Assembly: GCA_003132585.1 (NCBI GenBank)
Contig: PKYG01000089.1
Location: 1 to 48,523 of the forward strand
Direction: 5' to 3'
Source: Actinomycetota bacterium
Lineage (GTDB): Bacteria; Actinomycetota; Thermoleophilia; UBA2241
Length of the DNA stretch: 48,523 nucleotides
The notes beneath the pieces are model-generated. The model worked only from the letters and a program-made list of their open reading frames with translations. It was not told where the DNA came from and did no database searches. Every line of letters begins with the position of its first letter. Position 1 is the stretch's first letter. Both the position numbers and the translations under genes were made by a program. Positions 9,048 through 15,363 of this stretch are shown here, in pieces.

Positions 9048-9115
9048 GTCCCAGATCGCGATCGAGCCTCCTCGTCGTTGGCGATATGATGTCCGGGCGC
9101 GTTGCGGCGCCCAAA

Positions 9116-9140
9116 CCAGGGGGTACTCCCCAGGGTATGG
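9116..9140 (+). promoter_or_regulatory. candidate CsoR-type operator upstream of copA
   Basis: The stretch has G and C runs in the arrangement GGGGGTAC - TCCCC - AGGGTAT. On the other strand it reads ATACCCTGGGGAGTACCCCC, an imperfect palindrome resembling known CsoR operators (TAC/C-run/G-run/GTA). It lies 75 bases before the chosen copA start. No csoR gene is in the window, so assignment rests on the pattern and on the target gene. Confidence 0.45.
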
Positions 9141-9214
9141 TCACACGCTCGCAAGGGAATACTCTGGCGACGGGCGCCGCCCTGAAGCGTGAGCTTGCGA
9201 TCGAAGCTGGAGTG

Positions 9215-11653
9215 ATGTCCGAGAAGACGACCATCGAGATACCGATCACCGGCATGACTTGCGCCACCTGCGCCGTGCGTAACGAGAAGGCGCTGCGCAA
9301 GGTATCGGGCGTCGACGCCGTCGCCGTCAACTTCGCCACCGAGCACGCGAGCGTGACCTATGATCCCGAGGCGGCGACGCTCGATGACGTCATCGCCGCC
9401 GTCGACCAGGCCGGGTATGGGGTAGTCACGCAGACAGAGACGCTGGCTGTCCTCGACATGACCTGTGCGAGCTGCGTGGCACGCGTCGAGAAGTCGCTGA
9501 AGAGCGTGCCCGGTGTGATCACGGCCAACGTGAACCTGGCGACCGAACGGGCGACGGTGGCGTACCTGCCCGGGCAGGTCACGCACGAGATGCTGGTCGG
9601 CGCCGTGGTCGGGGCGGGCTACGGCGTAGCCGACCAGCCCGCCGACTCCGCGGCGCCCGCGGCGGCCGACGCCGAGACTGCCGGCCGACGGGCGGCCTAC
9701 CGCCGTCTTCAGCTCAAGGTCGTCGCCGGTGCCGCGCTCTCCGTGATCGTGTTCGCCGGCAGCATGCACGGCTGGTTCCCCTTCCTGCCGGCGTTCATGA
9801 AGAGTGGCTGGTTCGTCTGGGCGCTCGCCACGCCGGTGCAGTTCTGGGTCGGCTGGCAGTTCTACAAGGGCGCTTTCGCCGCTGCTCGGCACCGCACGAC
9901 GAACATGAACACGCTGATCGCCATGGGCGCGTCAGCCGCCTACTTCTACTCGGCGGCCGGCGTGCTCTTCCCCGGGTTCTTCGCCCACCGCGGTCTCGGT
10001 ACGCCGATGTACTTCGACTCAGCCGCGTTGATCATCACGCTGATCCTCTTCGGGCGCATGCTCGAAGCGCGCGCCAAGGGGCAGACCGGCGAGGCGATCA
10101 AGCGGCTCATCGGCCTGCAGCCGCGCACGGCGCGCGTGGTGCGCGACGGCGTCGAAGTCGATCTTCCCGTCGCGCAGGTCGCGCGCGGCGACCTCGTGCT
10201 CGTGCGGCCCGGCGAGCGGATCCCCGTCGACGGCGTCGTCGTCGACGGCGGCTCGGCCGTCGACGAGTCGATGCTCACGGGCGAGCCCATCCCGGTCGTC
10301 AAGGAGGCCGGTGACGAGGTCATCGGCGCCACGATCAACACCACCGGCGCTTTCACCTTCAAGGCGACGAAGGTCGGCGCCGAAACAGCGCTCGCGCAGA
10401 TCGTCCGGCTGGTCGAACAGGCTCAGGGCTCCAAGCCGCCGATCGCGCGCATGGCCGACGTGATCGCCGGCTACTTCGTGCCGATAGTGATCGGCATCGC
10501 CACGCTCACGTTCGTCGTATGGCTCGCGTTCGGCCCCTCGCCGGCGCTCAACTACGCGCTGCTCAACTTCGTCGCCGTGCTCGTCATCGCCTGTCCCTGC
10601 GCACTGGGTCTCGCCACACCGACGGCGATCATGGTGGGCACCGGCAAGGGTGCCGAGAACGGCGTGTTGATCCGCGACGGTGCGTCACTGGAGACAGCGC
10701 ACAAGCTCACGACGATCGTGCTCGACAAGACCGGCACAATCACCGAGGGCCGGCCGACGGTCACCGACGTGCTGCCGGCCGACGGGTTCGCCGCGGATGA
10801 GGTGCTGCGCCTGGCGGCCGGCGCCGAGCGCGGATCGGAGCATCCGCTCGGCGCCGCCATCGTCCAGGCGGCGCAAGCGCGCGGCCTCGACGTGCCGGCG
10901 GCCACGTCGTTCGCGGCACACGCCGGCCACGGCGTCCGCGCGCTCGTCGACGGCCGCGAGGTCGTCGTCGGCAAAGCGCAGTCGCGAGACGTGACGGCTG
11001 CCGACGACCATGCGCACGATCTGAGCTCGCAGGGTAAGACGCCCGTCGCCGTTTTCGTCGACGGGCGTCCCGCCGGCATGATCGGCATCGCCGACACGGT
11101 CAAGCCGGGTTCGGCGGCGGCCATCCGCCGCCTCCACGATCTCGGTCTCGAAGTGATCATGCTGACCGGCGACCACCGCCAGACCGCCGCCGCCGTCGGT
11201 CGCGAGGTCGGCCTCGACCGCGTCGTCGCCGAGGTCCTGCCCGAGCAGAAGGCCGAGCAGATCAAGTTGCTCCAGGATGAGGGCAAGCGCGTGGCGATGG
11301 TCGGCGACGGCATCAACGATGCGCCGGCGCTCGCCCAGGCGGATGTCGGCATCGCCATCGGCACCGGCACGGACGTGGCGATGGAGGCGGCCGACATCAC
11401 GCTGATCGCCGGCGACCTGCAGCCCGTCGTCACGGCGATCGCGCTGTCGAGGCGCACCATCGCCGTCGTCAAGCAGAACCTCTTCTGGGCGTTCGCCTAC
11501 AACGTCGCCTTGATCCCACTCGCCGCCGGCGTGTTCTACCCGGCCTTCGGTGTGCTCCTCAACCCGATCTTCGCCGCCGCGGCGATGGGTCTGTCGAGCG
11601 TTTCCGTGGTCACCAACAGTCTTCGCCTGCGCCGCTTCCGCTCGCCCGCCTGA
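9215..11653 (+). CDS. copA: copper-translocating P-type ATPase (P1B-1)
   Basis: 812 residues from ATG 9215. In-frame starts upstream (ATG 9086 and 9137) would overlap the operator-like palindrome, and the sequence before residue 1 does not look like CopA. Two heavy-metal-associated domains carry GMTCATC (Cys16/Cys19) and DMTCASC (Cys84/Cys87). Eight membrane helices follow with the actuator TGEP loop, the ion-site CPC (460-462) in helix 6, the phosphorylated DKTGT (Asp504), SEHPLG in the nucleotide domain, the [10 protein letters not shown] hinge, and YN and [12 protein letters not shown] in the last helices. All are diagnostic of Cu(I) exporters. It pumps Cu(I) out of the cytoplasm. A 12-bp hairpin follows 85 bases after the stop. 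Confidence 0.96.
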
Positions 11654-11738
11654 CCGGCACCAATGAAGAACGCCCTCGCGGGGCGTCGGCGGACCTACTT
11701 CTGACGAGCGGCTCGGATCGAAGAGCTCATAAACGGGA

Positions 11739-11766
11739 GGGGGCGCTTCCATCGGGAAGCGCCCCC
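11739..11766. terminator. 12-bp perfect hairpin between copA and a 20-codon minus-strand frame
   Basis: GGGGGCGCTTCC (11739-11750) pairs perfectly with 11755-11766 across the loop ATCG. It lies 85 bases after copA on the plus strand and 51 bases after the tiny minus-strand frame, so it could end transcription of either or both. T-runs are short on both sides (TTCG, GTTTA). A weaker 6-bp hairpin is at 11670-11686. Confidence 0.65.
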
Positions 11767-11817
11767 TTCGTCGAAGACTCTGTCACTCGATTTTCGCTAC
11801 ACATCTCTTGCCGATGT

Positions 11818-11880
11818 CTACCTGTGGCGCGGCGCCCTTGGCGTCTTCACCCAGTAGTAGATGAACGGGACACGTCCCAT
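11818..11880 (-). CDS. candidate 20-residue small protein with near-perfect Shine-Dalgarno
   Basis: Minus-strand ATG at 11880 to TAG at 11818, predicted peptide MGRVPFIYYWVKTPRAPRHR (20 residues): an aromatic core (FIYYW) between Arg/Pro-rich ends, net positive. It is preceded by GAGGAGGTGA, complementary to the 16S rRNA end over about nine bases, with five bases between that and the ATG; this is the strongest ribosome binding site I saw in the window. CATAAT at 11918-11923 is a possible -10. The 12-bp hairpin downstream could terminate a short transcript. It could be a membrane-active or regulatory peptide or a leader peptide. I do not recognise a family. Confidence 0.5.
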   Translation of the reverse strand: MGRVPFIYYWVKTPRAPRHR

Positions 11881-12171
11881 TGATCTCACCTCCTCTCTCA
11901 ACTCGTTTGCTACTGGTATTATGACCATCTCCATAGTGTTTATACAGTGGCCAGGCACATTTGAGCGTTTCGGCAGGGTCGGGCAGTGCCGACCCTGCCG
12001 AAACGGCACTCCGACCTGCCATTCTGCCGAAACGCGGGCGCGACACGGCGGCCGCTGTCCGAAACGGACAAGAAGACGACCGAATATTCCCGCGTCGGCT
12101 ATTGCTGGCACACGCGCCACCGTGCCAGCATCCTTTTGGCAGGAGATCATCCCGACTCTGCTGGGGCCCCT
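11881..12171. repeat. palindrome cluster with 17-bp perfect inverted repeat
   Basis: A 17-bp perfect stem pairs 11966-11982 with 11989-12005 (arms begin CGTTTCGGCAGGG, loop GCAGTG). A degenerate copy follows at about 12010-12034 (CCGACCTGCC ... CTGCCGAAACG). At 12056-12070 TGTCCG and CGGACA flank AAA. These look like a REP-like or regulatory palindrome family. Plus-strand translation upstream of the QueG-like gene has no supporting features. Confidence 0.6.
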
Positions 12172-12849
12172 ATGGATGTCAAGTCTGATCTCGACCGCAA
12201 CGCAATCGGCCACTTGCTCGCAGCCAGCGGTGCCGATGCTTGGGGAGTCGCCGCCAACGACCCGGCACTGCCACTGGCGCCGCCGTTGCCGCGAGCGATC
12301 TCGATCCTCATGCGTCTTCGACCGGAGGCGCTCGTCGGCGTCAGCAACGGGCCGACGAGCGCGTATCTTGCCGAGTACGAGCGCCTGAACGCCGCGTTGA
12401 GCGAAGCGTCGGCGGCGCTTGCCGGGGCGCTGAAGGCACACGGTCACGAGACGCTGGCCGTGCCCCCCACGGGGAGCTCCGAGGGTGCCTTCGCGCACAA
12501 GACCGCGGCGACCCGCGCGGGTCTCGGCTGGATCGGCAAGACGGCGCTCTTCGTCTCCGCCGAGTTCGGACCCGCGGTGCGCCTGGCAACCATCTTCACC
12601 GACCTCGACCTCTCCCCCGGCGACGCGGTCACCACGAGTCGCTGCGCGACCTGCGCCGTCTGCGTTGACGCCTGCCCGGCCGGTGCCGGCCGAGACGTCG
12701 ACTGGACGGCCGGCATGGCGCGCAGCGAACTCTTCGATCACGAGGCATGCCGGCGTCAGCTCGACAGTTTCGGCATGCCGGCGCAGATCTGCGGGATCTG
12801 CATCGCCGTCTGCCCCCTCACCCAGAACGAGAAGCCCGTTCGTTCGTAG
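12172..12849 (+). CDS. QueG-like 4Fe-4S binding protein
   Basis: 225 residues from ATG 12172; the frame is open further upstream but that part is palindromic spacer. Middle motifs HKTAATRAGLGWIGKTALF and the ferredoxin-type CATCAVCVDACPAG and ICGICIAVCP are like those of epoxyqueuosine reductase (QueG) and relatives, giving two [4Fe-4S] clusters. It is much shorter than QueG (about 300-380 residues) and lacks the C-terminal HEAT-like region, so it is more likely a stand-alone redox protein of this superfamily. QueG itself uses cobalamin, and the next operon encodes a Co/Ni-type transporter, but a link is only suggestive. The gene converges on cbiO with 35 bases between stops. Confidence 0.72.
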   Translation: MDVKSDLDRNAIGHLLAASGADAWGVAANDPALPLAPPLPRAISILMRLRPEALVGVSNGPTSAYLAEYERLNAALSEASAALAGALKAHGHETLAVPPTGSSEGAFAHKTAATRAGLGWIGKTALFVSAEFGPAVRLATIFTDLDLSPGDAVTTSRCATCAVCVDACPAGAGRDVDWTAGMARSELFDHEACRRQLDSFGMPAQICGICIAVCPLTQNEKPVRS

Positions 12850-12884
12850 GGCGGCGGCCGGACCCCTGCGGCAGGGCCGTCGCT

Positions 12885-13760
12885 TCAGCGCTGCTCGTCG
12901 ACGGCGTCGAGCAGCGCCGCCAGTGCCCGGGCCGCCTCGTCCACACTCGCCGGCATCGGCAGGTCCCTGCCCATGCGCTTCCTCAGCCCATCGAAGAGCT
13001 GCGCCAAGATGGGCGGCTCGATATTCGAGCTGCGCAGAGTCTCGGACTCGACGAAGATCTCCAGCGGCGTGCCGTGCAGAACTATGTGGCCACCGTGGGC
13101 GAGCACGTAGACCTCGTCGGCCATCTCCGGCACGATGTTGACGTCGTGTGTCGAGATGATCAGCGTCATGCCGCGCTCCACGACCTGCCGGTTGAGCAGC
13201 GCCAGCACCCTGCGCCGCGACCGGGCGTCCAGACCCTCGAACGGCTCGTCGAGGATCAACAGCTCCGGTTCGAGGACGAGCGCGCCGGCGATCGCAACCT
13301 TGCGCTTCTCGCCGCCGCTGAGATAGTGCGGCACCTTGTCGCGCAGGTCGGCGATGCCGAGCAGCTCGAGCGCCGTGTCGGTGCGCCGCGCGACTTCGGC
13401 GGCCGGCAAGCCGTACTGGCGCGGCGAGAAGGAGACGTCGTCCCACACCGTCGGCGCGAGCTGCTGGTCGTCGACATTCTGGAGGACGACCCCGATAGCG
13501 CGCCTGATCTTGGCATACTCCCTGGCTGGATCGACGCCCAACACCGCGACCGAGCCCTCGGCCGGCTTGAGCAGGCCAAGCAGGTGGAAGAGCAGAGTCG
13601 TCTTGCCGCTGCCGTTGGGGCCGAGCAGGACGACGCGCGTGCCCCGGCGCACGACGAAGTCGAGGCCGCAGAGCTCCACGCGCGATCCGTCGCTGTAGAC
13701 ATGCTTCACACAGCTGATGCGCGCCGCTTCGCCGCCGTTGCCTGTCAGTTCGCCACTCAC
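12885..13760 (-). CDS. cbiO: ECF/CbiMQO-type metal transporter, ATP-binding subunit
   Basis: 291 residues from GTG 13760. The GTG overlaps the TGA of cbiQ by two bases (GTGA), which favours translational coupling. It has Walker A LLGPNGSGKTTLLFHLLGLL, a Q-loop VLQNVDDQQLAPTVWDDV, signature LSGGEKRKVAIAGAL, Walker B LLILDEPFEGLD, and switch His in ISTHDVN. A C-terminal extension of about 60 residues follows the ABC core. It powers the CbiM-CbiQ permease for a divalent transition metal. Confidence 0.93.
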   Translation of the reverse strand: MSGELTGNGGEAARISCVKHVYSDGSRVELCGLDFVVRRGTRVVLLGPNGSGKTTLLFHLLGLLKPAEGSVAVLGVDPAREYAKIRRAIGVVLQNVDDQQLAPTVWDDVSFSPRQYGLPAAEVARRTDTALELLGIADLRDKVPHYLSGGEKRKVAIAGALVLEPELLILDEPFEGLDARSRRRVLALLNRQVVERGMTLIISTHDVNIVPEMADEVYVLAHGGHIVLHGTPLEIFVESETLRSSNIEPPILAQLFDGLRKRMGRDLPMPASVDEAARALAALLDAVDEQR

Positions 13761-14602
13761 GGCTGCTCGATCTCGTCGTCGCGACGCTGGCCGGCAGCCG
13801 ATGCCGCCGCCCGCACAGGCACGGCGACCGCGGTGATGAGCACCGCGACCGCGATCGCGAGCGGCAGCCAGCTGAACGGGTTGAGGAGGCGGAATTCGTA
13901 GCGGAAGACGAAGGCGAGCGCGGCCAGGGCGGCGGCCAGACCAAGGAGCGGCAGCTCCTTGAGCCCGACGCCGCCGGCGCGCTCGCCGGACAGGCTGCCG
14001 GAGTAGCCACGGATGCGCATCACGGCATAGGTGCGCTCGCTCGTATCGAACGCGTGCAGCACGCTCAGCGCCAGCGCGGCGCTCAAGTTGCGGGCGCGGC
14101 CCCAGAGGCCGCGACCCACCAGACCGCCGCGCAGGCGCACGGCGACCATCACGTCGCTGAGACAGTGCAGCAGGATGAAGATCGAGCGGTAGGTCATGAA
14201 GAGCACTTCGACGATGACGCCCGGCAGCAGCCGGCGGATCACCGCGAAGAGCTTCGGATACGGTGTCGTCGAGATCAGCAGAAGGACGATCGCCGCGGCC
14301 GTGACGGCTTTGGCGATCGTCGTCAGCGGAACGACGAGATCGCCGCGGTACTGAGCGAACGCGAACAAGGCGGCGAAGACCCCCGGGTACGCCGACCCCA
14401 TGACCAGCTTGCCGACAGGGATGCCGGAGCGCCGCGTGGCCGCCACCGCGATCACGTAGATGGTCAGCACGATGAGCACGTTCTCGACAGCGATCACGCC
14501 GGCCAGGCACAGCGCGGCGGCGATCGCCTTGGCCGTCGCCGATGCGCGGTGAAGGTAGCTGCGCCCGCTCGTGGCCCACAGGTCGACGGTCGCTACGTCC
14601 AC
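13757..14602 (-). CDS. cbiQ: CbiQ-type transmembrane (T) component
   Basis: 281 residues, starting GTG 14602 with GGGGAG upstream and overlapping the cbiM stop by ten bases. Several hydrophobic helices are interrupted by a cytoplasmic region with VAVRLRGGL and AVMRIRGYSG; the repeated R-RG type motifs couple T components to the ATPases. It links the substrate-binding CbiM to CbiO. Gene order and family fit a complete CbiMQO module; no CbiN is seen. Confidence 0.92.
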   Translation of the reverse strand: MDVATVDLWATSGRSYLHRASATAKAIAAALCLAGVIAVENVLIVLTIYVIAVAATRRSGIPVGKLVMGSAYPGVFAALFAFAQYRGDLVVPLTTIAKAVTAAAIVLLLISTTPYPKLFAVIRRLLPGVIVEVLFMTYRSIFILLHCLSDVMVAVRLRGGLVGRGLWGRARNLSAALALSVLHAFDTSERTYAVMRIRGYSGSLSGERAGGVGLKELPLLGLAAALAALAFVFRYEFRLLNPFSWLPLAIAVAVLITAVAVPVRAAASAAGQRRDDEIEQP

Positions 14603-15363
14603 GACACACCGCTCTCCCCGGGGCGCAGCAGCTCAGCGCGTACCCGGGCGACAAAGCTGACAATGAAGCCCGTCAGGGTGGCTTCGATCGCCCAGCCGAT
14701 CGCGCCCAGCGCGTAGACGGCGATCGCGAAGCGGGTGAGGGAGACACCGCCATCGCCTGCCGGCGCGCCCTGCTCCGGAGTGACGATGCGGTTGGCGACG
14801 AGGCCGTGTCCGAACGGATTGGCGAGCGTCAGAGTCTTGGGATCGAGCGAGCCGAGGTCGCGGGCGTGGGTCGGAGCGATACGCGAGAGCCCGACGATGC
14901 CGATCATCAGCGTCGTGCTCAGAGCAAGCGCCAGGACGGTTGCCAGGCCCGCCGCCAGCCCGGGACGGTCGCCAACGAGCCGCGAGAAGCCGCGAAACAG
15001 CAGGAAACCGGCGACGACCTCGGTGCCGATCACGACCGTGTTGAGGCCGATGACGGTGACGCCCCCGTGACCGAAGAGCGCCAGGATCAGATTGACGGCG
15101 AACGCGGCGAGCACACCGGCTGCCGGTCCGAGGATGATGCCGGCGAGCACCGTCAGATTGAGGTGGTAGGCAATCGGCACGATCTCGGTCGACATCGCCG
15201 CGAGCACGAGCGCCGCGACGACGCCGACGCGCGGCACGAGCTGGACGCGCTCGCCTTTTCGCACAGCGATCAGGGCGAGCCCGACATACACCGCCGCGAC
15301 CACCCATCCAAGCGCGACGAGCCACAGCGGCAGCACCCCGTCCGGGATGTGCAGGTGGCTCAC
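14593..15363 (-). CDS. cbiM: CbiM-type substrate-binding membrane subunit
   Basis: 256 residues from GTG 15363, one base after the fur stop. The start HLHIPDGVLP keeps the N-terminal His residues and HIPDG motif that bind Co(II) or Ni(II) in CbiM/NikM, here after a three-residue extension (MSHLHIPDG) instead of the usual MHIPDG. Further motifs are HLNLTVLAGIILGP and FGHGGVTVIGLNT. Family members import cobalt or nickel. The upstream Fur/Zur-type regulator and box leave zinc open as the substrate. Confidence 0.9.
   Translation of the reverse strand: MSHLHIPDGVLPLWLVALGWVVAAVYVGLALIAVRKGERVQLVPRVGVVAALVLAAMSTEIVPIAYHLNLTVLAGIILGPAAGVLAAFAVNLILALFGHGGVTVIGLNTVVIGTEVVAGFLLFRGFSRLVGDRPGLAAGLATVLALALSTTLMIGIVGLSRIAPTHARDLGSLDPKTLTLANPFGHGLVANRIVTPEQGAPAGDGGVSLTRFAIAVYALGAIGWAIEATLTGFIVSFVARVRAELLRPGESGVSWT

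Follow-up and report, generated by a model that had tools for sequence, protein, structure and literature searches.

The stretch of DNA behind the 3′ end of copA raises the question of whether a frame of only 20 codons, too short for standard gene callers, is a gene, and, if so, whether it is the peptide or the RNA that does the work. In the window, as we call the whole stretch of 48,523 nucleotides analysed here, this small ORF (MGRVPFIYYWVKTPRAPRHR) occupies positions 11,818–11,880 of the minus strand, opening with an ATG at 11,880–11,878 and closing with a TAG that ends at 11,818. The earlier note on this DNA had left the strand unnamed; the features that it listed (ATG, 20 codons, TAG, ribosome binding site, a CATAAT element and a 12-bp hairpin) are all present. 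On one side lies copA (9,086–11,653, plus strand; a heavy-metal P1B-type ATPase with HMA, E1-E2 ATPase and hydrolase domains in Pfam), which is convergent with the small ORF. The divergent neighbor on the other side (12,172–12,849, plus strand) encodes a double 4Fe-4S protein whose match to Fer4_16 (E = 2e-6) falls just below the curated cut-off and which adjoins copA throughout the family; we call it QueG-like (epoxyqueuosine reductase-like). Judging from the comparative sequence evidence presented below, the small ORF is a genuine but unannotated gene and encodes a basic protein of about 20 residues.

The claim that this frame has the strongest ribosome binding site in the window was borne out. 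Its Shine-Dalgarno (SD) sequence GAGGAGGTGA (11,886–11,895, minus strand), separated from the ATG by the five bases GATCA, forms a duplex with the 16S tail of −22.0 kcal/mol, which ranks first among the 3447 ATG, GTG and TTG codons on both strands of the window and leads the next best start (−16.0) by 6 kcal/mol. Across the 3.0-Mb assembly the pattern AGGAGGTG-N4-8-RTG occurs 25 times, against 12 for a reversed control, and among these 25 sites the best energy belongs to the window locus and to a near-copy of it on contig C96. A match of the form GGAGGTG-N3-9-ATG carries no significance by itself in a stretch of 48 kb, where 0.6 are expected; it is the conservation of the small ORF that leads us to take it as real. 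Another of the AGGAGGTG sites (L155, G000:C18:50801-50816) precedes a tiny ORF as well, MTIKKVAKGKAVMFCKCSSSC, of 21 residues with a Cys-rich end, which is perhaps a peptide precursor.

The relatives of the window's assembly include Thermoleophilia bacterium UBA2241 (G003, DDYF01000060.1) and the genome with contig JAKPOQ010000041.1 (G007), and in these two the first homologues were found by DNA similarity. The copA gene of every genome of the family was then taken and the opposite strand behind its 3′ end was read, so that most homologues were reached via copA and not via the small ORF itself. Twelve of the 13 copA-QueG-like loci of the family (uncultured Actinomycetota of the class Thermoleophilia, UBA2241-like) carry the small ORF, 11 of them clearly and one tentatively, at the same position, with 18–25 codons, an Arg/Lys-rich C-terminus and, in all clear cases, a strong SD sequence. 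Behind copA, the peptide reads MGRVPFIYYWVKTPRAPRRK on C96, MGPVPYLYYWVKREERRRRR in G003, MRRVPLSLYWVKRRDRRRQR in G007, MQGYAYLYYRLARGERRDRSRR in G009, MGWVPFTHAGRLARARRR in G004, MGPVPFSKTKVRRDERRRRT in G005, MGPVPFSKTRVKSDEREPRRRK in G012, MGPVHFNKTRVKQEDRYGKRRK in G008 and, with a GTG start, MGPVPFYKTKVKHKELRRRS in G011; the barely similar MRNFVATSYVSRRRRDERREDRTAR of G001 is the tentative case. The version of G010 (MGPVPFNRTRVKQEDRDGKRRR, also with a GTG start) stands beside the QueG-like gene on a short contig. C96, a 5.1-kb contig (L102) of the same assembly as the window and 90% identical to window positions 9,657–14,745, probably represents a second strain in the bin; a true duplication is less likely. 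The small ORF is absent from G014, which has both copA and the QueG-like gene, and is therefore dispensable there; the incomplete assemblies of three further family genomes contained no close copy of this particular copA or of the QueG-like gene.

Most versions of the peptide begin with MGxVPF. Beyond codons 1–12 it diverges fast, and the C-terminus is strongly basic in every version, its richness in Arg and Lys being kept while the residues differ. The aromatic FIYYW core that had been pointed out in the window peptide does exist there, but it does not define the family: YYW or YW is found in two genera only, and another genus has SKTKV or NKTRV instead. Loss of the frame or of its ribosome binding site in relatives, which the earlier note had named as grounds for giving up the idea, was not what we found, as both are conserved. 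A much longer minus-strand ORF of 730 aa that shares the stop of the small ORF (11,818–14,010) was rejected as an antisense shadow, because this frame stays open for just 93 aa in C96 and for 55 in G003.

Could such a pattern arise without any peptide, a chance frame being preserved because the underlying DNA serves another role, for example as a promoter or binding site? The frame is short, and in 48 kb an SD-ATG match by itself is no rarity, yet start, stop, SD sequence and charge are conserved at the 11 clear loci in four genera, and the substitutions are biased toward synonymous changes. Among the 63 codon pairs that changed within codons 2–12 across five genomes from a single genus, 37 are synonymous, and the differences at the three codon positions number 10, 25 and 44. 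This share of 0.587 compares with 0.187 in simulations that place an equal number of changes at random (p about 0.0005), and for G000, G003 and G007 it is 0.294 against 0.155 expected (p = 0.04), both p-values being guides only, since the test takes neither the tree nor mutational bias into account. The synonymous bias that the earlier note had proposed to look for is thus present, and because selection acts on the residues, the peptide itself matters. A neutral scan of 90,280 bp of family loci on both strands, for frames of 17–26 aa with an SD energy of −11 or below and at least three Arg/Lys in the last six residues, returned 11 frames, ten of them at the copA-QueG-like spot and the eleventh unrelated; within the window the small ORF was the sole frame returned. 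Identity between the window and C96 is 97.5% over SD and ORF, 80% over the promoter and 82% between stop and hairpin, a comparison that is supportive only, since nearby coding genes have identical runs equally long. We regard a chance frame as highly improbable, and translation of the small ORF as well supported by these sequence comparisons. The suggestion of an undescribed small protein is supported by this lean to synonymous substitutions and by a frame whose start codon, ribosome binding site and location are all conserved.

A possible −10 element, CATAAT (11,918–11,923, minus strand), stands 37 bases upstream of the ATG, and a T/A-rich hexamer is found at a similar position in several homologues, with no convincing −35. 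An operator palindrome over this promoter looked plausible by eye but did not rise above shuffled sequences. A perfect, GC-rich 12-bp hairpin without a U-run (11,739–11,766) lies 51 bases after the stop and is a probable terminator common to the two convergent transcripts; a best-stem search placed a hairpin 35–47 nt past the stop in 11 of the 12 loci, and its arm sequences differ between genera. In about ten of the 12 loci a further ATG, often within CGATGAAC (window about 11,790–11,805), follows 12–16 nt 3′ of the stop. It may mark a second mini-ORF or an RNA motif; the frames that begin there run into the hairpin, and their ends vary by genome.

The main rival to a protein-coding gene is a transcript that acts as RNA, for example against the copA mRNA. 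Such a dual-function or antisense RNA would base pair with the convergent copA mRNA through a 3′ overlap, or with a target elsewhere, and the peptide would be its second product. The small ORF is indeed convergent with copA at every locus, 96–178 nt from the copA stop, and the 177-nt transcript of the window folds more stably than shuffled sequences (z = −3.5), although this is largely due to the terminal hairpin. Against the antisense reading, structure conservation is limited to that hairpin, to which RNAalifold adds just a 4-bp helix; a hairpin that covers the AUG and is strong in the window was discarded as a conserved element since it is not kept in other genera; and the terminal hairpin lies between the small ORF and copA. 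Rfam gave nothing at gathering scores for two loci (L096 and L100) and only weak, chance-level matches for the window region. Taken together, we consider an RNA function of this kind unlikely, if still worth serious thought.

Alternatively, the act of translation might itself control something downstream, and the earlier note had indeed offered a regulatory leader peptide as one of its two readings. A very strong SD sequence, a short ORF and a hairpin behind it are in keeping with such a translation-sensing element, but codons for a regulated amino acid do not occur in a run, and the sole downstream gene, copA, is antisense at all loci, with the hairpin in between. As nothing follows on the strand of the small ORF, an ordinary leader peptide is ruled out, and we hold the wider leader reading to be very improbable.

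The constant neighborhood might instead point to a small copper-related protein that works with CopA, for example by binding its mRNA or the pump. The small ORF always adjoins copA, while the outer flanks of the block formed by copA, small ORF and QueG-like gene vary between genomes. However, vertical inheritance of the block accounts for this linkage equally well, and in two other families of the class the region behind copA had no such ORF. Moreover, the peptides have no Cys and no conserved His or internal Met, and so lack conserved metal ligands. A role in copper handling is accordingly quite doubtful in our view, if a little less so than the leader.

We are thus moderately inclined to see in the small ORF a gene that stands alone, is specific to its lineage and encodes a translated cationic microprotein of 18–25 residues acting in trans. 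Its own promoter would lie upstream, about 40 nt from the ATG, and once transcribed the peptide would be made in quantity. It might then act through the Arg/Lys-rich C-terminal half on a partner that, going by charge, would most likely be RNA, the ribosome or another anionic molecule, while the conserved Gly-x-Val-Pro-Phe start may be a specific contact. We consider it unlikely, though not remote, that a new class of ultra-short (18–25 aa) cationic proteins is represented here, binding RNA or ribosomes like a minimal ribosome-associated factor and counting among the most strongly initiated genes that these bacteria have. The size of the small ORF is near the lower limit for a gene under protein-level selection, and synteny, SD strength and end charge together can find tiny genes that sequence similarity alone misses.

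Outside the family, a pattern search of 399 class genomes gave two chance-like matches and nothing else, and a profile search of 119 genomes gave only background-level matches (best E = 3e-3, true members at about 1e-8 or below). QueG-like paralogues elsewhere in the family's own genomes have no small ORF beside them, and none was found on viral contigs. Pfam and NCBIfam contained no significant match (best NCBIfam score 9.4 bits, cut-off 29), nor did the PDB when queried with one homologue, and the peptides were not described in the literature searched.

Comparison with known small proteins yields partial likenesses. The small ribosomal proteins of the bS22/AURKAIP1-COX24 type in Actinobacteria have about 33 residues and, by eye, appear to share with the small ORF an MG-x-V start and an Arg/Lys-rich sequence. 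COX24_C (PF08213) turned up in none of the 15 family genomes, and the small ORF peptides do not match the model. The hydrophobic, membrane-spanning peptide typical of type I toxins is not seen either, there being no hydrophobic stretch on inspection (e.g., MGPVPFSKTKVRRDERRRRT). The nearest functional analogy is offered by the DUF1127 proteins (CcaF1, YjiS), which are very small and arginine-rich, CcaF1 being known to bind RNA (PMC10253847, PMC11707872, PMC12501420); these have about 50 residues and a Pfam-defined motif, whereas the small ORF peptides have 18–25 residues and did not match the DUF1127 Pfam model. In transcript architecture, a short unit that carries a tiny ORF and ends in a hairpin, the nearest analogy is VcdRP, a dual-function sRNA with a 29-aa protein, VcdP (PMC8672173), but the only conserved structure of the small-ORF transcript is its hairpin. 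Since the GMSC smORF catalogue predicts ORFs from 30 nt (PMC11364881), the frames could be listed there unnamed; sORFdb is another such catalogue (PMC11796252).

Further sequence elements were noticed around the two flanking genes. The intergenic region that separates the small ORF from the QueG-like gene contains a long inverted repeat, GTTTCGGCAGGGTCGGGCAGTGCCGACCCTGCCGAAAC (11,967–12,004), and, upstream of the QueG-like gene, a palindrome of the type TGTCCGTTTCGGACA (about 12,056–12,073), possibly an operator, with similar TTGTCCGTTCTGG or CCGTTCTGGACAG in the corresponding region of several relatives. Just inside the listed start of copA (about 9,113–9,140), CCAGGGGGTACTCCCCAGGGTATGG resembles by eye a CsoR-type operator, and the true start of copA may be further downstream than listed.
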